Below, one piece after another: positions 11,211 through 40,000 of a stretch of 64,000 nucleotides of DNA. The first letter of the stretch is position 1. Every line of letters begins with the position of its first letter. The position numbers were made by a program, and so were the translations under genes. A model generated the notes under the pieces. It did no database searches. It had not been told where the DNA came from and was given only the letters and a program-made list of their open reading frames with translations. The stretch covers positions 62,001 through 126,000 of the forward strand of contig WION01000060.1 of NCBI GenBank assembly GCA_015039365.1, written 5' to 3'. Source of the DNA: Amanita rubescens (lineage: Eukaryota; Basidiomycota; Agaricomycetes; Agaricales; Amanitaceae).

Positions 11211-14200
11211 ATGGCAGATAAAGCTAGCAAAGTTTCATCAAGTATGCCAACTTGAATTCTTGACATTCCCAATGTAATACTACTATACTAATTTAACTCA
11301 CACAAATCAGATACAGAAGAAGCATATGTCAAAGGGCTCCGAGAGCGATATGAATGCCAACATTTTCGTATCCTTGTCATAGGCAGGGCTAATGCTGGCA
11401 AAACAACCATCCTTGAGAAGGTTTGTGGTGTGGCAAAGGGAACAAAACCCATCATATATGGCAAGGATGGTAAGAGAAATTGGATTTTTGCAAATCCTTT
11501 GACTATTGAGTTTCTCTTAGGCAAAAAGCTAAAACAGTCTTTATCTCATCTAATGCCATCAATGGAGGTCAGTCAAATATTGATGCATGAATGAACATTC
11601 ATCAGCAATGATAACAGAGAGGCCTACATGACATTGAGCATCAAATTACATACAAAGGCAGTAATTTCATTTTTCATGACTCTCAGGGTTTTGAATCTGG
11701 TGCAATTGAAGAATTGAAGATTGCTTGGGAGTTCATCGAAAAAAGGTCTGCAGAAACTGAGCTAAAAGATCAGCTGCATGCAATCTGGTATACCACCTTA
11801 GCTCTTGTAATATGTACCTGGCTGACTAACCTTCTTATAGGTACTGTATACCCATGGATAGTCCTCGACCCATTCTAGCCACAGAACTTGAGTTCTTTAA
11901 CAAAGGGACTGGCAAAGGTACATTCTGATGATTAGCAAATTTGGTTTGGTGCAGGAAATTGCCTCTCAGCTTTGATTGACACTTCTTGCCCACTAACCAA
12001 GCCTTCCACATCCCAAAAAATCTATGGTCAGGCCTATAGTGTGCTGATTAGTAAATGCTTTTTTTATACAGTTCCATTGGTGGTCGTATTCACCAAGTTT
12101 GATGGTCAAGTAATCAGTGAATATACTGGCTTGCCTGATACAACAGCAACTGAGGATAAGTGGGAATATGCCAGGAAAAATGCTGAAAGTGTTTTCTGCA
12201 GTGTTTATCTTCCAAAAATCTTGGATACCAAATATGCACCTAAAGCATATGTGCGACTGGAAGGTGAGAATAGTGAACATTTCTGCCTCCAGACTGGAAA
12301 TAATGGTGTTCAATAGACATGGATCTATTTGAGAAGAATTGCCCTGAATTGACTCAGCAAACTGCTGATGCAATTGATGATATCATCTTACATGAGTTGT
12401 TCATCTCAACACAGATGAATAACCTTGATCTCTGTGCTAAAGCTGCACTTCAGTAAGGGCCCATTTAAAATCTTGTTTTAAGTATTGACCTTGCCTAGAC
12501 ACATCTTGGTTTCTAAATTTGACTGGAATGATGCCATCATTGCAGTCTTTGTTAAATTTCCACATTTTTGGGTAAGCATATGGATTGTGCCAATAGTTGC
12601 ATATGATGGATTTGGAACAGATTGACAGAAGTGTAGGTTTCTTGCATTATTGTATATGAAATAATAAATAACAAATTGTGCAACAGGATGTAAATGGCAC
12701 TTCAATTCCTTTGTGTGCAAGCCTGGTTGACAATGCTAGAAATCTGTTGATGAAATACATGTGAGTTGTCATCATCATATATGTATCTGTTGCAAGATTG
12801 CAAGAAAGTATCTGATATGTATGATTGACAGTTGGTGAGTAGAATTCAATCAATATACCTTTAAGGTCTTGTCCCATGATAAATAGTTTGTGAGTGATAA
12901 TCCATGTTAATGCTCAGCAATCTTGTCTTATGATCAACAGGGAGTGAGTGGCATCACTCCATTTTCCTCAGATAATCCCATGCTGAACCATATACATAAC
13001 CAACAGAAAGTGAGTAAATCTATATTTTCAAGCTGCCTTGCCACATTCCATTGACATCTTATCCAAATAACAGGGAGTGAGTGGTGCCACATATTTCTTA
13101 TATTGCCTCATATCCTACTTGAATACAGAAGGTAATGAGTATCCTAATATTTCTGAGGTACCTTAGGCCTGATTAAAGTGACAGAGGGTTAGTGACACTA
13201 TATTTTTATCTGGCAAATAATTTCATCAGATGTCACCTCGTGAACAACAGAAAGTGAGTGATTATACCCTTCATCCTGTCATTCTAATGAAACTGATAAA
13301 ACCTTCATGCATAAAAAGGCAGTAAGTATCAACATGCACATATCCAAAGTAATGACTAATCAGATTTCTATCAACAGGATGTGAGTGATACTTCTCGTGA
13401 AAGCTGGCCTAATCATATCCAGTACAGAAAGTGAGCGACAATGATTTTCTCTTCAAACACAACTTACTATGGTCATCAGGAAGTGAGTGGTGTCACTGGT
13501 GTGGATCACCCCCTCTGATGGGTAAACCCATGACATTTTTATGATCAACAGCTAGTCAGTCACCTGCACATTTTCTGACAGCAGTTTCATGATACATGTT
13601 TCAACTACCAATAGAGAGTAAGAAAATTGTACATTTTCATGAAAGAATGTCTTATTCAAACATGTCTTTCCATGACCAACAGAAAGTTAGTAACACTGCA
13701 CATTTTCATGAAGGGCAGCTTCATCACATCTTTTATGTGACCAACAGCAAGTAAGTGAAATTAGACATTTCTGCACAGTTGTTAAATTGTTGCAATCCTT
13801 CTATGACCAACAGAAAGTGAGTGGCATTGCATGTTTTTATGGAATGCATCTTTAACACATCTTTCATTTGACCAACAGGATGTGTGTGGTATTGGAAATT
13901 ACTCTGATGACCTTCTCAGCACATATCTTTCTATCACCAACAGGGAGTGAGTGACATTGCACTTCCTTTGTAAGGTACACTCACATATTTTTTTCCTTTC
14001 ACCAACAGTTTGTGGGTAACATTGCATGTTTTTCTGAAAGACACTCTTGTCATATCTTTTGTCATAACAAATAGGGTGTAAGTGATGTTGCAAATTGATC
14101 TAAACAGTGGTCTTAGGACAGATTTTCCCATGACCAACAGGAAGTGAGTGATTTCCTTCTCAGAATGCAATCTCATCACTACTGATCCTATAACCAACTT

Positions 14201-16134
14201 AGGTTGTGAGTGAAACTTGTGCACTTTTGTGAATGATGGTCTTGTAACAATTTTTTCCATGATTAAAAGCTTGTGAGTGATATCCAATGTTTTAATGAAG
14301 ATCATGTCACATCTTTTCTTCATCAAAGCGAGTGAGCTATTTTGCACATTTATCAGTCTTATCACATTGTCAATACTTGTAGTTGGTAAGTATCATTTCA
14401 TATTTTCATGAGGGATGGTTTCATCACTTCTTTCACAGGCTGTGAGTGACTTTGGCCATTTTTTGATGCTGGCAGCAACAACACATCCTTTGCATGATCA
14501 CCAGTGGGTGAGTAATGTTCTATGTCATTCTGAAAGGTCATCTCATTCATCTCATTTCCTGCAATAAACAGCAAGTGAGTGAGATTGCACATTGTTTGAG
14601 AACTTTGTCTTATAACATCTTCCTTTTGCCAACAGCTTGTGAGTAATGTTGCAGTTTATGCTCAACAATAATCCCATAACATCTTTATCCAACCAATAGG
14701 GAGTGAGTGGTATGGCATTTTTGGTGATAGGCAGTCTCAACATATTATTTTATGACCAACAGTTTGTAAGTAACATTACATTTTGGGGAAAGGCAGTTTA
14801 TTGAATATTTCCTTATGGCCCACAGCAAGTGAGTGTTATTTCATATTCTTTACAAGGGGCATTCTCATCAATTCCCTTCCTATCAATAACAGGGAGTAAG
14901 TGACATGAACAATTTTCTTGAAAGTCTCATATGATGGTTTTTAATAACAGCATGTCAGTAACAATGAATATCAGTTTTAATAAGGCAACCTAATCACCTT
15001 TTCTGGATCTAACAGGGAGTTAGTGACATTGCACAATTTCTCAAAGGCTCTCACCACCTCTTTTTCTCTGATGAACAGCTTGTGAGTTATATTGCAAACT
15101 TTCTCAAAGGCTATCTCATCACCTCTCTTTTTTTCTGATGAACAGCTTGTGAGTGATATTGCAAACTTTCTCACAGTGCTACAGTATCTCATGCTGCCAA
15201 CAGAAAGTGAGCAATATTGAAAACATTTCCAAAAATCAGCTTAGTGACATTTTTTCCTATTACTCACAGGGTGTGAGTGACATGACACATTTTTTGGCAG
15301 TATCATCACATATTTATATTTTTTATGATCAACAGCTAGTGAGTGACACTGGATATTCTTCTGCAAGGCAGACTTATCACATGGTATGGTTTCTTATACC
15401 CAATAGGAAGTGAGTGTCATTATAATTTTTTTGATGATCTTGATTTACATACACATTTAATAGCCAGTAAGCACATAAGCTTATCCTTCCTTGGTCTAAT
15501 GTAACATCACCCATAGATCGTATGATATCACTACATCTCACCTAATCCTTCTTCCCCATATGAGTGTCTTGCTCTGCAGGTAAGTCTAGTAACTTGGGAG
15601 CTATCAATTGTGATATCAATCTTCTTGCTAGATTGTAGGTCCAATAGTCCTGGCACTGGAGGTTCTTCAACTTCTTATAATCAGCATGAAATTTTCTGTT
15701 GGTTTGGAGATCAACAAACAAATCGAGACACCAGATTTGCAAAAACTGTATGGTCACCATTTTACCTTACATGAAGAAACTGACACAACTACGACCAGCC
15801 TACAACCTGCCAAGCCTTAGTTGGTAAATTATTCCATTCATTCATACTGTTTATGCTAACACTTTCAAGCAATCATTGTTGTCACCCAACTATCATTTTG
15901 GATTCAAAAGCCATTTATGCCAGCAATTAAAGAAGTATTGGACCAATGCAAGGATAAAGGCTATTTTGAAAAACTGAAAACCATCATTACTTCTGAAACT
16001 ATGCATCTTGGTCATTCAGAATTGGTTGCATTCCTGCAGAAGCAAGTTATCCAATTGGTGGTATGTACTTCATTTACTATTCAGGGACTACTTATGCACA
16101 TATTGTATGGCAGGATGAAATACACATAACTTGA
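11211..16134 (+). CDS. P-loop GTPase (G-domain protein) with an array of 45 three-nucleotide exons
   Basis: Exons 1-8: 11211-11241, 11311-11469, 11521-11567, 11618-11787, 11841-11917, 12072-12263, 12317-12452, 12499-12571. They encode a G domain: G1 GRANAGKTT (residues ~35-43), G3 HDSQGFESG, G4 TKFD, in the order of the MMR_HSR1-like GTPases expanded in Agaricomycetes. Exon 8 ends in phase 0 after FPHFW. Then follow 45 exons of exactly 3 nt (listed under 12687-15579), all phase 0. Then come 15580-15747, 15799-15823, 15870-16060 and 16114-16134. The sum is 1425 nt, 474 residues, with no internal stop. The start ATG is the one that puts a phase-1 intron before TEEAYVKGLRERYE. Uncertain points: an optional 72 nt exon (GAAATTGCC.., about 11957-12028) inside the 154 nt intron, and an alternative exit from the array at 15632. 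No cDNA is available, so inclusion of the triplets is inferred. Confidence 0.7.
12687..15579 (+). repeat. Tandem array of intron-like units separated by codon-sized exons
   Basis: About 45 diverged units follow each other. Each starts GTGAGT (about half; otherwise GTAAGT, GTTAGT, GTCAGT, GTGAGC and similar) and ends AG, usually CAACAG. The best-conserved start is near GTGAGTGACATTGCACATTT and the best-conserved end near TATGACCAACAG. Regular introns are 47-69 nt. Between each AG and the next GT lie exactly three bases. Triplet start positions: 12687, 12832, 12887, 12941, 13007, 13074, 13129, 13185, 13251, 13319, 13378, 13428, 13480, 13552, 13615, 13683, 13748, 13814, 13879, 13944, 14009, 14075, 14141, 14203, 14270, 14329, 14383, 14439, 14505, 14572, 14636, 14700, 14763, 14826, 14893, 14951, 15016, 15079, 15146, 15204, 15270, 15336, 15407, 15464, 15517. 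No triplet is a stop codon. Unit interiors have drifted while both splice ends are kept. Confidence 0.9.
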
Positions 16135-21531: not shown

Positions 21532-23433
21532 CTACATTAAAGAATAGATTAGGTATGCCAGTGAATCAAAGAAAACCATATGGATGGCAAACCATATTGG
21601 TACATCTTGGTTCAGTTGTTGCTTGATAGGTTGAAGAATGGGTGACTGGCTATATGAAAGAGATAAATAACTTATGAACTCAAGTGAATTTGGAATGTGA
21701 CCCACTATTGGTGCCATGGATGGGCCAGGCTTTGCTCTTCTTGCATTCATCACATCCATATCCAGCTTATTTGCCTCTTTCCACTTTCCCATTTTCCTGT
21801 ATGTTGTGGCCAAAGTGGTCATGATAGCAAGAGTGCTTGGATGGTCTGACCCCAGCTGTGCCTTTCTGGAATCCATCACATATACTTGCAGCTTCTGTGC
21901 TTCATCCCACCATCCTTGTCTGAAGTATGTTAATGACAGATTGGACATGCTGATGAGAGTAGATGGATGATTTGATCCAAGCTTTGTTTTCTTTGCATTC
22001 ATCACATGCATCTCAAGCCTCTGTGCCTCATCCCACCTTCCCTGACGTTTGTATATTGTTGCCAAATTGTTCATGCTCATGAGTGTGTGCAGGTGGTCTG
22101 ATCCAAGCTTTATTTGTCTTGCATTCACTACATCCACCAGAAGCCTCTGTGACTCATCCCACCTTCCCTGATGCAAGTATGTCATCCCCAATTTGTTCAT
22201 GCTGTTGAGAGTATCTGGGTGGTCTGATCCAAGCTTCATTTTTCTTGTCTTTATCACATCCACTAGAAGCATCTCTGCCTCATGCAACCTTCCATGATGC
22301 ATGAATATTGATGCTAAATTGGCAATACTGGTGAGAATGTGAGGGTCATCTTCAGACAGTGACTCTGATCCAAGCTTTGCTTTTCTTGCATCCATCAGCT
22401 CCATCAAAAGCTTCTCTGCCTTGTCCCACCTATCCTGATTCATGTATGTTGATACCAAAACATCCATGCTGGTGAGAATGGAGGCTTGGTAGTCTGATCC
22501 AATCTTTGTTTTTATTGCATTCATCACATCCATTTGGAGCTTCTCTGTCTCATTCCACCGTCTTTGATTTCCATATGTAGATGCCAAATTGGCCATGCTG
22601 GTGAGAGTGTCTGGGTGGTCTAATCCAAGCTTTGCTTTTCTTGCATCAACCACATCCACCAGAAGCTTCTCTGCCTCAATCCACCTTACTTGACTCATGT
22701 ATGTGGATGCCAATTTGGCCATGCTAGTCAGAGTGTCTGGGTGGTCTAATCCAAGCTGCATTTTTCTTGCCTTCATCACATCCACCAGAAGCTTCTCTGC
22801 CTCATCCCACCTTTGTTGATTCATGAATGTTGATGCCAAATTAGCCATGCTGGTGAGAGTGTCTGGGTGGTCTGATCCAAGCTTTGCTTTTCTTGCATCA
22901 ACCACATTCATCAAAATCTTCTCTGCCTCACCCCACCTTCCCTGATTCATATATGTTGATACCAAATCATCCATGCTGGTGAGGGTGTCTGGGTGGTCTG
23001 ACCCAAGCTTTATTTTTCTTGCATTCATCACATCCATCTGGAGCTCCTCTGCCTCATTCCACTTTCCCTGATTTCCATATATGATTGCCAAATTGACCAT
23101 GCTGGCAAGAGTGTCTGGGTGGTCTGATCCAAGCTTTGTTTTTCTTGCATCCACCACATCCACCAGAAGGTGCTCTGCATCATCCCACCTTCCCTGATTT
23201 CCATATGTGAATGCTAAATTGACCATGCTGGTGAAAGTGTCTGGGTGGTCTGATCCAAGCTGTGTTTTTCTTGCATCCACCACATCCACCAGAAGGTGCT
23301 CTGCATCATCCCACCTTCCCTGATTTCCATATGTGAATGCTAAATTGACCATGCTGGTGAGAGTGTCTGGGTGGTTTGATCCAAGCTTTATGTTTCTTGC
23401 ATTCTTCACATCTATCTGAAGCTTCTCTGCCTC

Positions 23434-23680
23434 CACTGTGAGCCCTAAACCCAACGATTTTAACCCTGCGGTTGGGTTAAAATCACTTTTCACCCGAATG
23501 CCATGCGAACAACGGGTGAACTTGAATCGGGTTACTTTCACCAGTGTGTCCGGGTGAAGCCAAGTCACCTGGTTAACGGTTGATTTTCCATCTGAGACAA
23601 CGTCACCCGCACAGAACGGGTGAATATGATTCATATGACCGGGTGAATATACAATTTTCTACTAGTATAACTACACCCAC
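23434..23680. repeat. Left TIR and subterminal CGGGTGA repeats of the CACTA element
   Basis: After CACTGTGAGCCC the region carries several copies of CGGGTGA or its complement TCACCCG (for example near 23490, 23513, 23550, 23607, 23618 and 23640) in both orientations. Such subterminal motifs are the usual binding sites of CACTA accessory proteins; that role is inferred here. Confidence 0.7.
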
Positions 23681-23708: not shown

Positions 23709-26700
23709 CTATTCATCCCGGCTATAGGTAGACTGCTGTAATTCTCCTGAACGGTCAATTATTACCCAGTTGTTACCAGTTTGTGCACGTCCGACAAGGC
23801 ACTGCACCGTTGTTATATCCACAACCTCCTTCCTACCCATTTTTGAATAGACCGGGAATCCCATTGAGTTTGTCATGTCTACCTCGCACCTATGAATGGC
23901 CGCGAGAATGTACGTTGTGTCCGATTGGAGCGCTGGATCCAGTTCAGGTGCACGTGGTAACTGCACAACAAGGATATGTTCAAGTTGCCCATAGAAGTCG
24001 GCTATCTCATAATGTGGAGCCTTACGTCGTTTGCGTGCGTTTTGGTCCACTAACAAGTCATACTATATGCATTGGTGAATCTCCAGCTCTGCATTACAAC
24101 TCAAGTCACTCACCCTAATAAATGTTGCATCCCTCCTGTCCTCTGCTGCAAAATTAAGGGATGCAGCACGCATATCATCACCATTCAACCGACGCACCCG
24201 AGCCCATTGCTGTACATTGTCCATCTTGAAATAACGTCTTACTGCCTTCAACGGCTTTCCAAATCGCGTGGAAAAACAGATGGCAATCTTCTCTTCGATC
24301 CAAGAAGGTAGGCTTGATGACATGCGGTGTGGGGGCAACAAGATGCATGTCGGGTCTGATTAATGATTGTTGATCAAGGTGTGATATGAATTGAACACGA
24401 GAACGTACAAGAGTGATGAGAAAACGATCCTTTGGCCTCATCTGTCGCTTTGGGCCTCAGAGCAAGCTCGTCTGCCAGTCCAAACTTGATCTTTATCTGA
24501 TCCAACTGAGCGGCGGCAACAACATAGTTATCGATGTTTGCAAATGGGTATCGATGACTCTTGATGATGGGAACCAAATGGCCACAAAACCGTTCGGTGG
24601 GAAATGCCCAACTGGTCCAGACCGGCCCAGAATCCTTGATGGAATCTGCGATATGAAGGAGCGCGTGGAAAGTGACAGGACATGCCGATAATCGTGATGG
24701 ATCATGTTGGTAGTATAGCCTGTCATTGTAATTATCAATTATGTTGATACGGTTCTCAAATGTTAATTGACGTACTTTTCATACTTTTCTATCCATTTCT
24801 GAAACCCGATTTGAATGGTTTGGATGTCGTTCTCAGTCATTTCATATTTGAGACATATGTGTACCAGTTTTGAAAGTTCAATAAAATGTTCAAAGTAAAC
24901 CTGTTTCCGGAAGCGTCGGGAAAGAAATATAGGACCAAGGTATAGCAACCAAAAGGACCAGCTGTCAGCAGTGGTGGCAGATTTATCATTGGCAACATTG
25001 GGCGGTCGAGCGCAGAACACTGATGGAATGGTATTGCCCGATTTGGCTGTCGCAGCGCCAACCGCATCCCAGACTCCCGCATTGAACTCGTACTCTCCAG
25101 TTCCTTCATCCAGACCTTTAAACTCGCTCGTCCACAACAGAACCAAGTTTTTCAGAACATTCTCGAAAACTAGGTGCATGAAGTCATAGGGGAAAGAGCT
25201 TGGGAAGAATAGCGATGGTACGTAGGATAAGATTGAAAGTCCTTTAATTCCCGTTTGCTTTGCTAATCTTTCCGATTCTGCAGCTGAGCGTGCCTGCTGT
25301 ACTTCCCGGGCCTGCTGTAAGAAGCTGGTATGGGAACGGACAGGAAGGTGGTCAGCCTCGTATGCTTTGATGGAATGAGGATCTGTCATGACGTCTGGGT
25401 GTCGAGACCGTTCAAGTGGAACATAATGTGTAGTAGCCCTGGCCCCTGGTATCCGTAACCCTTTGATTGTGCACATCCGGCAGGGAACTACACCGTTGTG
25501 ACCTTTCATATGCATGACCATGCTGATTGCTGGAATGTCCCCGAACACGACAATGAGGAAGGCACGAAGTGGAAATACTTCAGAATTCAAGCTGTCATAT
25601 GCCTTGACCCCTTTCGCCAAAGCAAGAAGCTCTTCAACTAAGGGCCACAGGAACGAGTCAAAATCTGTGGGTTTTTTGGGCCCGGGAATGACACCAAGGC
25701 ATATTATGTGGCGTATCCAAAAGCGGACCTCTGGAGGCAGATTAAAGTTATACCCGAGAAGTGGCCAACACGTAGATTTCCGCCGCTTAAAGGGGCCAAA
25801 ACCGTCTGTTGATACACCAAGAGCAATATCGCGTGGATCCTGAAAATATTTGTAAGGCTGTACACGTCCGTCAACCGTCACATAGGTTTCCCGTAGACGT
25901 AAATAGTTTGTGCTGTCCATTATATCCTTGACAGTGCCTGCCTCGTGTTGAAACTGAGACCGATATTGAAGCTTTTGAGCAAAATCTTTGTTTCTGAAGT
26001 AAGCGACTAGACGTGGGATAAGGGGAATATAGGTGAAGGATTTGCGTGTCTTTCCTTTATTGTCAAAGCGTGGTTGATCGCAGTACGGGCAGTTAGATAA
26101 CTTTGCATGTGGTCCTACAAAGCAACAGCAGGAAGATACACAGCAATCGTAGCGAACAGGCTTGAATGCCGAGAGAAATTCCACACGCCCTTTTGCTTTC
26201 TTGAGGGACACGACAGGAGATTCCGGAAATGCATATTTGAGTTTTCCGTACCCCTTATCAGTCATATGCGTATCAATCTTGAGTGCAAAATGTCTTAGAA
26301 GAGCAAGCTCTTCATCTGTAAGTTCGTGTTCTATGATGATGATGTCAAGCTGTGTAGTATAAACGGCATTTTGGACTTGGACGCACCAATCTCGGCATAT
26401 TCGCGCTCGAAATCTTCATTAATTTTATCTTCGATTGTTAATCCCTGCGAGAAGTCTTCGTCCAAATCATTGTCGTCATCCGAGTCTGAGGAACCAGCCA
26501 CATCCAATTCTTCTCCACTATCATCTCCGTAAGCCTGGTCTTCATTGTGGTCTGATTCGCTGGAGCTCTCGTCATGTAAGGCATGATCCCTTCCCAACCA
26601 AACAGAGTTCTGCAGGTCCAACATTGAGTCATCAGTAATTGGACCAGTTAGTGTGACGCTCTGAGGTGCCTCTGGAGTATCAGGAGTTAAAGCCGATTCT

Positions 26701-28339: not shown

Positions 28340-28592
28340 ATCCGGAAATGAGGTGAATACTGATCCTTCAGAGATAACCCGGTACGCGAGTGACAGAAAC
28401 CCGATCAAACCTGGTTGGGCTCGACCGAGTGAAATGGTGCAAAATGCTTACCATATTCACCCCCTTTTCACAAGGTGCGCATCACCCAGGATTCGGGTGA
28501 TTCGTGTTATTTTAACCATACTGCCTACGTAAACTACCCCGAAGGGCAGGTGAAAACCGAGAGGAAATTCACCCACGTCGCGCTTTACAGTG
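28340..28592. repeat. Right subterminal repeats and TIR of the CACTA element
   Basis: Mirror region of the left end, with AGGTGAA, TCACCC and CGGGTGA words near 28353, 28461, 28490, 28495 and 28569, ending in ACAGTG at 28587-28592. Confidence 0.65.
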
Positions 28593-30767
28593 CTCATCCC
28601 ACCTTCCCTGATTCCCATGTGTCAATGCCAAATTGGCCATAATGTTGAGAGTGTCTTGGTGGTCTGAGCCAAGCTTTGTTTTGAATACATTCATTACATC
28701 TACCTCTAGCTTTTCTGCATCATCCCACTTTCCCTGATTCCTGTATGTTGATGCCAAATTGGCCATGCTGGTGAGAATCTTTGGGTGGTCTGATCCAAGC
28801 TTTGCTGTTCCTGCATTCATCACATCCATCAAAAGCCTCTCTGCATCATCCCACCTTTTTTGATTCATGTATGTTGATGCCAAATTGGCCATGCTGGTGA
28901 GAGTGTCTGGGTGGTCTGATCCAATCAGTGTTTTTCTTGCATTCATCACATCCATCTGCAGCTTCTCTGCATCATCCCACCTTCCCTGATTTCCATATGT
29001 GAATGCCAAATTGGCCATGCTGATGAGAGTGTCTGGGTGGTCTGATCCAATCTGTGTTTTTCTTGCATACATCACATCCATCTGGAGCTTCTCTGCATCA
29101 TCCCACCTTCCCTGATTTCCATATGTGAATGCCAAATTGGCCATGCTGGTGAGAGTGTCTGGGTGGTCTGATCCAATCTGTGTTTTTCTTGTATACATCA
29201 CATCCATCTGGAGCTTCTCTGCATCATCCCACCTTCTCTGATTTCCATATGTGAATGCCAAATCAGCCATGCTGGTGAGAGTGTCTGGCTGGTCTGTTCC
29301 AATCTGTGTTTTCCTTGCATTCATCACTTCCATCTGGAGCTTCTCTGCCTCATCCCACCTTCCTTGATTTCTGTATAGTGATGCCAAATTGACCATGCTA
29401 GTGAGAGTCTCTGGGTGATCTGGTCCAATCTTTGTTTTGAATGCATTCATCACATCTATCTCTAACTTCTCTGCATCATCCCACCTTCCCTGATTTCCAT
29501 ATGTGAATGCCAAACTGGCCATGCTGGTGAGAGTGTCTGAATGGTCTGATCCAATCTGTGTTTTTCTTGCATTCATCACATCCACCAGAAGCTTCTCTGC
29601 CTCATTCCACCTTTGTTGATTCATGAATGTTGATGCCAAATTGGCCATGCTGGTGAGAGTGTCTGGGTGGTCTGATCCAAGCTTTGCTTTTCTTGCATCA
29701 ACCACATTCATCAAAATCTTCTCTGCCTCATCCCACCTTCCCTGACACATGTGTGTTGATGCCAAATCAGCCATGCTGATGAGAGTGGCTGGGTGATCTG
29801 ATCCAAGCTTTGCTTTACTTGCATTCATCACATTCATCTGAAGCTTCTCTGCCTCATCCCATCTTCCCAGATTGCTGTATGTTGATGCCAAATTGCCCAT
29901 ACTGGTAAGAGTGTCTGGGTGGTCTGATCCAAGTTTTGCTTTGCTTGAATTCATCACATTCATCTGAAGCTTCTCTGCCTCATCCCATCTTCCAAGGCTA
30001 CTGTATGTTAATGCCAAATTGCCCATGCTGGTAAGAGTGTCTGGGTGGTCTGATCCAAGCTTTACTTTACTTGCATTCATCACATTCATCTGAAGCTTCT
30101 CTGCCTCATCCCATCTTCCCAGATTGCTGTATGTTGATGCCAAATTGCCCATACTGGTAAGAGTGTCTGGGTGGTCTGATCCAAGTTTTGCTTTGCTTGA
30201 ATTCATCACATTCATCTGAAGCTTCTCTGCCTCATCCCATCTTCCAAGGCTACTGTATGTTAATGCCAAATTGGCCATGCTGGTAAGAGTGTCTGGGTGG
30301 TCTGATCCAAGCTGTGCTTTAATTGCATTCATCACGTTCATCTGAAGCTTCTCTGCCTCATCCCATCTTCCAAGGCTACTGTATGTTAATGCCAAATTGC
30401 CCATGCTGGTAAGAGTGTCTGGGTGGTCTGATCCAAGCTTTACTTTACTTGCATTCATCACATTCATCTGAAGCTTCTCTGCCTCATCCCATCTTCCCAG
30501 ATTGCTGTATGTTGATGCCAAATTGCCCATACTGGTAAGAGTGTCTGGGTGGTCTGATCCAAGTTTTGCTTTGCTTGAATTCATCACATTCATCTGAAGC
30601 TTCTCTGCCTCATCCCATCTTCCAAGGCTACTGTATGTTAATGCCAAATTGGCCATGCTGGTGAGAGTGTCTGGGTGGTCTGATCCAAGCTTTGCTTTTC
30701 TTGAATTCATCACATTCATCTGAAGCTTCTCTGCCTCATCCCATCTTCCCAGATTGCTGTATGTTGA

Positions 30768-31039: not shown

Positions 31040-36798
<5,759 letters not shown>

Positions 36799-36803
<5 letters not shown>

Positions 36804-37057
36804 CGGTCGAGATTTCGTTTTTATTTCATTTCATTTTCTTTTCTTTTAGTTACAAGAAGTTCCCACGCTTACCTAAGAATTCCGCGGAACGACGGCGTGA
36901 GAGTGACGAGTCCGAGTATATATACCTGAATACTAGTTACATGTCCCTTAGTCTTATGATTGTTTCTGTTGTCCATAGACGCAATCTTATTCTCATTTCT
37001 CATCCGCGTTTCTAGTCTCGAGTGTCCTAGTGATTGTGTCGGGATTACCTCCTAACA
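36799..37057 (+). repeat. 3' LTR
   Basis: 259 bp, identical to the 5' LTR except one T for C in the TGT(C/T)GTCCATAG segment. Confidence 0.96.
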
Positions 37058-40000
37058 GTTGATGCCAAATTACCCATACTGGTAAGAGTGTCTGGGTGGT
37101 CTGATCCAAGTTTTGCTTTGCTTGAATTCATCACATTCATCTGAAGCTTCTCTGCCTCATCCCATCTTCCAAGGCTACTGTATGTTAATGCCAAATTGCC
37201 CATGCTGGTAAGAGTGTCTGGGTGGTCTGATCCAAGCTTTACTTTACTTGCATTCATCGCATTCATCTGAAGCTTCTCTGCCTCATCCCATCTTCCAAGG
37301 TTACTGTATGTTAATGCCAAATTGCCCATGCTCATGAGAGTGTCTGGGTGGTCTGATCCAAGCTTTTCTTTATGTGTATTCAACACATCCATCAGAAGCC
37401 TCTCTGCCTCATCCCACCTTCCCTGACGCATGTGTGTTGATGCCAAATTGGCCATGCTGATGAGAGTGGCTGGGTGATCTGATCCAAGCTTTGCTTTTCT
37501 TGAATTCATCACATTCATCTGAAGCTTCTCTGCCTCATCCCATCTTCCCAGATTGCTGTATGTTGATGCCAAATTACCCATACTGGTAAGAGTGTCTGGG
37601 TGGTCTGATCCAAGCTTTGTTTTGAATGCATTCATTACATCTACCGCTAGCTTCTCTGCATCATTCCACCTTCCCTGCTGCATGTATGTTGATGTCAAAT
37701 TGCCCATGCTGATGAGAGTGCCTGGGTGGTCTGATCCAAGCTTTGCTTTTCTTGAATTCATCACATTCACCTGAAGCCTCTCTGCCTCATCCCATCTTCC
37801 CAGATGGCTGTATGTTGATGCCAAATTGGCCATGCTGGTAAGAGTGTCTGGGTGGTCTGAACCAAGCTGTGCTTTAATTGCATTCATCACGTTCATCTGA
37901 AGCTTCTCTGCTTCATCCCACCTTCCCTGATCCCCATATATTAATGCTAAATCGGACATGTCGATGAGAGTGTCTGGATGGTCTGATCTGATCTTTGCTT
38001 TTCTTGCCCTTATCACATCCAACAGCAGCTTTTCTGCCTTGTCCCACCTTCCCTGGTTTGTGTATGTTGATGCCAAACCAACCATGCTGTTGAGAGTGTC
38101 TGAGTGGTCTGATCCAACCTTCCTTTTGAATTCATTCATCACATCCATCTCAAGCTTCTCTGCATCATCCCACCTTCCCTGCCCCCTGTATGTTGATGCC
38201 AAACTTAATATGCCAACAAGAGTGTCTCTGTGGTGTGATCCAATCTTCATTTTTTGTGCATTTATTACATCCATCTGGAGCTTTTCTGCCTCATCCCACC
38301 TTCCTTGATCCCAGTATACTGATGCCAAATTGGCCATGCTGGTAAGTGTGTGTTGGTGGTCTGATCCAAGTTTTATTTTCCTTGCATTCATCACATCCAT
38401 CTGGAGCTTCTCTGCCTCATCCCACCTTCCTTGATACTCATATGTTACTGCCAAATTGCCCATGATCATCAAAGTGAATTGTCCATCTGATCCATGCTTT
38501 ATTTTGCTTGCATTCAACACATCCATCTGAAGCTTCTCTGCCTCATCCCACCTTCCTTGATGCAGATATGTTGTTGCCAAATTGGCCATGGTAGTGAGAG
38601 TGTCTGGGTGGTCTGATCCAAGCTTTGTTTTCCTTTGATGAACTCCAATGTGTAATAATTGTTCTTCCTCATCCCAGCTCCCAGCACGATTGAATACAAG
38701 TGCAAATTTTGCATTTTCATCATCATAGTACTTGCTGTTCAATTTTAATTCCAATCCATGGCAAAAGTTTGTCCTAATGTGAGGTGCAAGCAATTGATAG
38801 AATTCATAATTATCAGTACTTGTTTCAAGTGCTATTGAACATGACAACAGTGCTCTTGCTCTGTAATAGCAACCAGTTGCTTCTGCTTTTGGTATGCAGT
38901 TTCTACTCCATTCATTTACTAGGAGGTGCATAGAATACAGGTGATTGTGACTCCTGACCAATGAGAATGAGAGTAAGACTTGGATGCCATCTAGAAACTG
39001 TAGTTTGTTCCACTCCCCATCTTTTCCTATGAACACAGTTTCATCATCCAGTAAACTCAATGATGTTGGAAGATGATCATTCACATCCAAACCCAATGAT
39101 GACAGAAACTCAATTGCATTATCCTCAACACCTTTTTTCAGGTAGTTCTTTGCAGCATCTTTGAATAATTCTTGTGGTATATTAGCATGATTTAGGAATG
39201 CAAAGATCTTCAAGAGCTTGATGGCACTTTGTGCTCCAACAGCTTCTGGTGAACTATCCTTTGCAGCTATATCCTCCATCCTTTTCATGGAGATGTCCCA
39301 TGTCCCATATGTAGATTTTCCATAATCTGAAGCACCTTCAAATCCTGGAGTATCCATCATTAACCTGTTCCTGTATCTTGCATACAACTCCAAATAATCA
39401 TTAAGGCTGCAACCACAGGAATGTATATATGCTCCTGCTTGGTCAATAGCAAGAGGGAATCCATCCAATTGTGACACAAGCTGCTGGGCCAGGTTACAGA
39501 TATCACTGTCTGTGTCATCAAGCATGCCTGACTTCAAAAGCAAGGAAATAGCATCTTGATTTTCCATGCAATGAACCTCCATTGAGTTATTCTGGCTCAA
39601 TCTCTTCAATCCAATATTCCTACTTGTTATCATAACATTTCCTCCATTTCCTGGGGGGAGGAAGTTCTCAACTACTGAGTAATGTCCATCTGCTCCATCA
39701 TACACAATCAAAGGGTTGAGCTTTTGAGATATCCATTTAAGAGCAGATCTGATTGAGGGTCTACCATCTGGTGAAGTGCTGTTGGCCAAGGATATCTGCA
39801 AGAGTGCAAATTCAACAGTTTTCTCTGAAGAAGCATCAATCCAAAACACATCAGAGAACCTTGAATAGGTAAGTTGTTTTGAATTCCTGTATTAATTTGT
39901 AAAATACTCACAGATCAGGATTTTCTTCAATGAATTTAAGGCAAATCTGAGTCTTGCCAATGCCACCGAGACCATGCATGAGAAAGAGCTTGCTTTGGCC

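Follow-up and report, generated by a model that had tools for sequence, protein, structure and literature searches.

Micro-exon genes are among the closest described counterparts of the gene reported here. Such a gene is defined operationally by seven or more exons, of which half or more are shorter than 70 nucleotides (nt) and a multiple of three in length, four or more of them in a row (PMC7653826). Those of Schistosoma mansoni contain 10-20 short exons, given as 3-81 nt in an abstract and as 6-81 nt in the text and mostly 15 nt long, with introns of 0.1-5 kilobases (kb) (PMC10526429, PMC7653826). Single exons of 3 nt are described from Drosophila homothorax (PMC7392893), and two of them from lipS of Dactylellina haptotyla (PMC5639578). 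We analysed a 64,000-nt stretch of the Amanita rubescens genome (assembly GCA_015039365.1, contig WION01000060.1, positions 62,001 to 126,000; hereafter the window, numbered from its first letter), which carries what is very probably an intact member of a large A. rubescens family of P-loop GTPase-like genes, with 46 of its 59 exons being genuine single codons in a continuous frame. By the definition of PMC7653826 this is a micro-exon gene, since 49 of the 59 exons qualify (the 46 single codons and exons of 12, 21 and 63 nt) and all 49 are consecutive.

Exon layout of the window gene

The gene model was built by comparison with paralogues and JGI proteins. It runs from an ATG at 11211 to a stop at 16129, and the spliced model comprises 59 exons and 467 residues with no internal stop. 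The 46 single-codon exons are all in phase 0 and are accompanied by one zero-length AG|GT exon; introns total 3,515 nt against 1,404 nt of coding exon including the stop. The model aligns with JGI proteins both upstream and downstream of the array. Its parts are as follows.

11211-11241, 11311-11469, 11521-11567, 11618-11787, 11841-11917, 12072-12263 and 12317-12452, + strand: exons 1-7; frame open from the ATG, JGI protein alignment
12499..12571, + strand: exon 8, ending ...KFPHFW in phase 0; model and JGI protein alignment
12621..12632, + strand: exon 9, 12 nt, IDRS; aligns with VDRA (P0008) and VGRD (P0075)
12687..12689, + strand: exon 10, single codon GAT (D); in several paralogues the corresponding exon is a single codon for E or D
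12740..12760, + strand: exon 11, 21 nt, KSVDEIH; paralogues and spliced model
12832..15519, + strand: 44 single-codon exons in phase 0, peptide LFGKGKRKADKELRKQKDGFGEVLRLAWQLGFQGHGLLKGLEPI; AG-NNN-GT chain and model
Starts of array exons 1-22, + strand: 12832, 12887, 12941, 13007, 13074, 13129, 13185, 13251, 13319, 13378, 13428, 13480, 13552, 13615, 13683, 13748, 13814, 13879, 13944, 14009, 14075, 14141
Starts of array exons 23-44, + strand: 14203, 14270, 14329, 14383, 14439, 14505, 14572, 14636, 14700, 14763, 14826, 14893, 14951, 15016, 15079, 15146, 15204, 15270, 15336, 15407, 15464, 15517
15579..15580, + strand: zero-length exon, AG ending at 15579 and GTAAGT from 15580; spliced model, AG|GT in paralogues
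15632..15634, + strand: 46th single-codon exon, ATT (I); paralogues have CTT, TGT or TTT
15685-15747, 15799-15823 and 15870-16129, + strand: C-terminal exons including the stop; model and JGI protein alignment

The signature of P-loop GTPases combines a Walker A motif, GxxxxGK[ST], with a TKxD-type motif, and the window protein has both (GRANAGKT and TKFD) as well as HDSQGFE, all three within exons 1-7. PF01926 is given as a precomputed domain for several of its relatives. Two of the proteins discussed below, P0027 and P0032, scored 16.1 and 18.1 bits with Pfam MMR_HSR1, neither reaching the curated cut-off of 21.9.

An earlier note on this DNA had reported 45 AG-NNN-GT sites between 12687 and 15519, and all 45 were found: GAT at 12687, then 44 from TTG at 12832 to ATC at 15517-15519. 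The joined triplets of these 44 are open in frame 1, with stops in both other frames, as had been stated for all 45. The reported spacing of 47-69 nt holds within the 44, as does the distance of 142 nt between the first two sites, but the latter is made up of a 50-nt intron, the 21-nt exon at 12740-12760 and a 71-nt intron. The FPHFW exon does end at 12571 in phase 0, but the 12-nt exon at 12621-12632, between FPHFW and GAT, had been missed. Position 15580, taken in the note as an exon start, instead opens a second intron, whose GT abuts the AG of the one before; ordinary exons resume at 15685. The 474-residue model of the note is replaced by one of 467 residues, with ATT at 15632-15634 added as the 46th triplet. 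A first model with a 74-nt exon (12687-12760) and a C-terminal exon from 15632 (IVGPIV...) was ruled out by paralogues and JGI proteins, which show the 21-nt exon and a different C-terminus.

With the spacing set at 44-75 nt, the longest AG-NNN-GT chain in the window has 44 members, against a maximum of 5 in 500 random order-1 Markov sequences and of 3 in the rest of the window (34 tiles). Pairs of the form AG-k-GT within the array, with both splice scores at least 4, number 36 for k = 3 and at most 2 for any one of the remaining values of k between 0 and 40. Because the scoring matrix had been trained on these window sites themselves, the weight of the argument rests on other loci, on pattern counts and on the chain-length test. 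Genome-wide, there are 2,461 strict units CAACAG-NNN-GTGAGTG and 2 of the reversed pattern, while AGNNNGTGAGT sites number 9,685 and their reversed pattern 2,701. Dividing the difference (9,685 - 2,701) by the GTGAGT fraction of 0.496 gives a rough estimate of about 14,000 single-codon exons in this one genome. A weak branch-point signal was also seen, with TRAY lying 4-45 nt from the 3' end in 50 of the 59 window introns compared with 39.5 in shuffles.

Arrays in paralogues and the coding nature of the triplets

At least 290 exon-level matches of the genome to the window protein, obtained with the first protein model that was later dropped, indicate many gene copies. We read 20 further stretches (L031-L050): 18 were taken from GTPase matches, one on contig C1 from a GTPase match together with an array place, and one on C1 from array places alone, where the array was found to follow a GTPase. 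Arrays are present in all 20 stretches, each with 8 to 77 single-codon exons, and the longest single run is 75 (L049). All arrays read sit in GTPase genes, 18 of the 20 stretches having been picked by GTPase matches alone. Two further contigs with array clusters, C2 and C3, had no GTPase-gene matches among the matches listed. Strict units form an unusually long cluster at C3:126930-135642, outside the window; it covers some 8.7 kb of a single strand, is interrupted near 131937-133300, and possibly represents more than 100 codons or two arrays.

In the 20 stretches the AG-k-GT spectrum reached 727 at k = 3, a count that includes the near-identical window copies L039-L041 and in which overlap between stretches has doubled no more than 5 triplets, against a maximum of 34 for any other k up to 45 and 15 for k = 3 antisense. 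The copies carry 34 to 77 triplets and differ by whole units, leaving aside L044 and L048, whose arrays break off after 29 and 8 triplets into unrelated sequence that we read as insertions. An AG|GT junction stands at the array end in 15 of 21 copies, 4 of these near-identical. In L032 and L038 an AG|GT of unsure equivalence lies near the last decoded triplet; in L033, L035, L044 and L048 none was seen at the corresponding place. At the position of the AG|GT, P0027 has no residue relative to L050. The decoder also proposed a zero-length exon ahead of the first W in several paralogues, which we rejected as most likely the end of an exon of about 30 nt.

In the earlier note, genuine single-codon exons had been the first of two alternatives, and it is this alternative that is supported by the depletion of stop codons, by the order of residues in intron-free proteins and by the greater identity of triplets than of intron cores in most of the closer paralogue pairs. 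Among 887 triplets (L039-L041 excluded) there are 2 stops, where 57.2 would be expected from position-specific base frequencies with independent columns; an earlier decoding, which took in all 21 copies, yielded 2 in 1,006. Genome-wide, CAACAG-[CAA/CGA]-GTGAGTG occurs 555 times and TAA or TGA in the same context twice, TAG not being counted. GC replaces the GT donor after 15 of the 887 triplets (in L031, L032, L038, L044, L045, L047, L049 and L050). The third base of the 887 is A in 56%, T in 36%, G in 8% and C in 0.1%, and 33 of the 2,461 strict units end in C, whereas in the ordinary exons of the window gene the last codon base is T in 147, A in 130, C in 74 and G in 70 cases. The triplets of 12832-15519 and L031-L050 draw on few codons per amino acid, and almost all of these have A or T as their last base. 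The rarity of C may be due to the CpG that NNC creates before GT, the decay of which to T would be synonymous; such decay would not account for the scarcity of G at the last exon base.

The array peptide also recurs in intron-free proteins. P0027 (478 residues, on a JGI contig of 1,486 nt) contains the triplet residues of L050 in order, with 42 of 50 aligned positions identical and a score of 231, compared with a maximum of 52 in 300 codon-order shuffles and of 22 in the other two frames. P0017 matches L037 with a score of 159 (shuffles at most 61; 33 of 51 identical), and P0029, P0032, P0008 and P0075 score 92-109 with their own best arrays, above every shuffle (at most 46). When an exact A. 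rubescens transcript of an array was sought among 8,000 scored candidates with E up to 1, just P0027 was returned, and no locus identical to P0008, P0017, P0027 or P0032 was found among the exon matches listed. In addition, 9 of the 15 paralogue pairs compared are closer ones, and 8 of these have triplets more similar than their intron cores: L034 with L033, L035, L037 and L042, L037 with L042, L045 with L044, and the window gene with L039 and, by 0.001 only, with L041. Relative to L039, the window gene has intron cores that are 94.8% identical, and its 45 triplets differ at one synonymous site. At the level of genomic and protein sequence, then, the exon structure, the coding nature of the triplets and the presence of the array peptide in intron-free proteins appear established.

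Recognisable array peptide is absent from all 15 NCBI Amanita models that were examined by sequence, and this protein segment has thus probably been overlooked. Ten of these models stop 0-28 residues past FPHxW and two stop before it, while P0020 and P0121 continue for 52 and 50 residues without such a peptide. Five other proteins, P0114, P0115, P0117, P0118 and P0119 (predictions from Lyophyllum and Mycena and a JGI protein), likewise end within about 25 residues past FPHxW, and comparable arrays may therefore occur more widely in Agaricales.

Several observations weigh against the reading of the triplets as single-codon exons. Automatic decoding left one in-frame stop each in L038 and L049, and the earlier decoding one in L032; in L050 one unit is 4 nt long and the frame probably changes past the array, so that some copies may be degenerate. 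P0074 matches no array read better than shuffles do (score 34, shuffles reaching 41), and the best match of the window's own array, P0008, scores 47, which was equalled by 3 of 1,000 shuffles, the other six proteins scoring 20-30. P0027, P0017 and the like are presumed to be cDNA solely as intron-free open reading frames on short contigs. P0088, an NCBI model from A. rubescens, has no array peptide between FPHYW and the C-terminal part; a copy or isoform lacking the array may exist, or the gene finder may have skipped the array. Finally, triplets are less similar than intron cores in 7 of the 15 pairs. One of these, the window gene with L040, is marginal (0.993 versus 0.996), and the six others are distant pairs (triplets 0.50-0.63, intron cores 0.60-0.75) in which the lower triplet identity reflects turnover of the distal codons.

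Variable codons, similar introns and the origin of the arrays

Codons and introns of the arrays follow different patterns. Seven pairs of the WFEQGKK subfamily show 87-91% identity in their upstream DNA; within each pair, 11-14 of the first 15 codons match, against 27-35% of the aligned distal codons. P0029 and P0032 are identical at 302 of 322 and 87 of 92 positions outside the variable part and at 11 of 50 inside it. Thirty-five introns of L036 are 77-98% identical to a 62-nt consensus, with pairs up to 98% identical. This consensus is exactly common to the five arrays L036, L043, L045, L047 and L049, and that of L046 is 98% like it; no array-specific intron consensus was found among these six. 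Of the 37 distal units of L036, the 48 pairs with introns at least 94% alike have the same upstream codon in 12.5% of cases and the same downstream codon in 10.4%, compared with 13.4% and 12.8% for all 666 pairs, so that introns and codons appear to have largely separate histories. The variability of the segment and this decoupling are, like the exon structure, regarded as established by sequence comparison.

The order of splicing, the mode of array growth and the biological role of the encoded linker are what we infer. Each intron of about 60 nt has a donor (GTGAGTGAC-like) and an acceptor (ATGACCAACAG-like) of its own. It would be recognised by intron definition, and short introns recognised singly would impose no requirement on exon length. 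Removal would be stepwise, since splice sites only 3 nt from each other are unlikely to be occupied or committed simultaneously, and sequential splicing is plausible. The array encodes a linker joining the GTPase part to the C-terminal part, and in the WFEQGKK subfamily about the first 15 codons are kept while distal codons differ strongly between paralogues in sequence and number. As a unit consists of one phase-0 codon and one intron, its gain, loss or skipping never breaks the frame, and an error that skips a unit would cost one codon only. Probably the arrays change by gain and loss of whole units, with introns homogenised independently of the flanking codons. It is a speculative and rather doubtful suggestion that the arrays generate diversity codon by codon, with near-identical introns serving as recombination and splicing cassettes around single codons. 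If this were so, DNA turnover and exon skipping would vary a protein segment residue by residue with the frame kept, and single genes might give many mRNA variants.

As to the origin of the arrays, we give even odds to duplication of blocks of codon-plus-intron units, with gene conversion homogenising the introns and selection holding the codons. This would fit the variation of array size by whole units and the repeated two-codon words of L038 (13 versus 4.3 expected, matched by none of 500 shuffles; no significant excess in the 11 further arrays tested). It is also hinted at on contig C13, where 7 of the 8 listed pairs of units at a distance of 7 carry the same codon, although this is a weak signal (p 0.04 by shuffling, for one lag among many, with CAA/CGA units alone listed). 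Equal neighbouring codons are not in excess over 12 arrays (40 seen at lag 1, 36.0 expected), which speaks against block duplication and has led us to drop growth by duplication of single units; near-identical introns without shared codons are a further difficulty.

An introner-like origin, in which a mobile intron of about 62 nt was placed at one pre-existing codon boundary after another, has some chance of being correct but is not favoured. The consensus common to five arrays and nearly so to L046 is consistent with it, and so is the failure of L036 units with near-identical introns to share codons more often than all pairs do. On the other hand, it leaves unexplained the exact exon length of 3 nt and the near absence of exons of 6, 9 or 12 nt, the region is a single uninterrupted exon in none of the 20 stretches decoded, and in the stretches read the arrays occur only in the GTPase-like family.

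The exons might also be real in the family with the window copy silent or dead. No transcript-like protein was found for this copy, but the intact 467-codon frame through 59 exons and the single synonymous triplet difference from L039, with intron cores 94.8% identical, make this unlikely. A last rival reading treats the whole stretch as a single intron or growing intron array that leaves or stays in the transcript as one piece, with the triplets as spacer outside the mRNA; it is barely credible. Array units are diverged copies of one another, and NCBI models end near FPHxW or lack the array peptide, P0088 joining FPHYW directly to the C-terminal part. However, exons of 3 nt would probably escape gene finders in any case, stop codons are depleted, the other two frames are closed, and triplet peptides recur in order in intron-free proteins, P0027, if cDNA, carrying the triplet codons for a relative of L050.

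Elsewhere in the window there are three open reading frames with TPR repeats in 126-nt tandem units on the - strand (21532-23634, 28569-30719 and 37045-39849), the third of which also matches NB-ARC, as in NLR-like genes. Retrotransposon-like open reading frames occupy 31354-36803 on the + strand, the second (32643-36803) having reverse transcriptase, RNase H, integrase and chromodomain. An open reading frame at 24763-26265 on the - strand has a tnp2-type transposase domain.

Comparison with known systems

Introners are spread across many different genes and are separated by ordinary exons. The Amanita arrays are like introners (PMC9860276) in having many near-identical intron copies in one genome, with pairs here up to 98% identical. 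Unlike introners, the Amanita copies lie 3 nt apart and, as far as read, in one gene family. Near-identical introns around unrelated codons offer a direct handle on intron multiplication.

The zero-length AG|GT exon kept at the array end resembles a recursive splicing ratchet point (PMC8605326) and is a candidate for one. The ratchet points described in that source lie in long Drosophila introns, whereas the Amanita AG|GT lies between two introns of about 50-80 nt. As in homothorax (PMC7392893) and lipS (PMC5639578), a spliceosome able to include a 3-nt exon is implied; there it includes one or two per gene, here long arrays. Dozens of 3-nt exons in a row probe the limit of spliceosome proximity, and such arrays would make the order and fidelity of splicing measurable within one transcript.

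With the micro-exon genes of schistosomes and tapeworms (PMC10526429, PMC7653826), the window gene has in common many consecutive exons, mostly multiples of three, the skipping of which keeps the frame, and a structure that is hard to annotate. Ordinary gene prediction misses the single-codon layout. The Amanita arrays differ from those genes in having exons of one codon, an unbroken run of 44 (window) or 75 (L049), introns of about 60 nt and a place in a fungal GTPase-like family. A literature search, which covered few subscription papers and preprints, returned no earlier description of single-codon exon arrays or of this Amanita family. Given this result and the fit to the operational definition, we consider the arrays of A. 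rubescens a new and extreme variant of the micro-exon gene.

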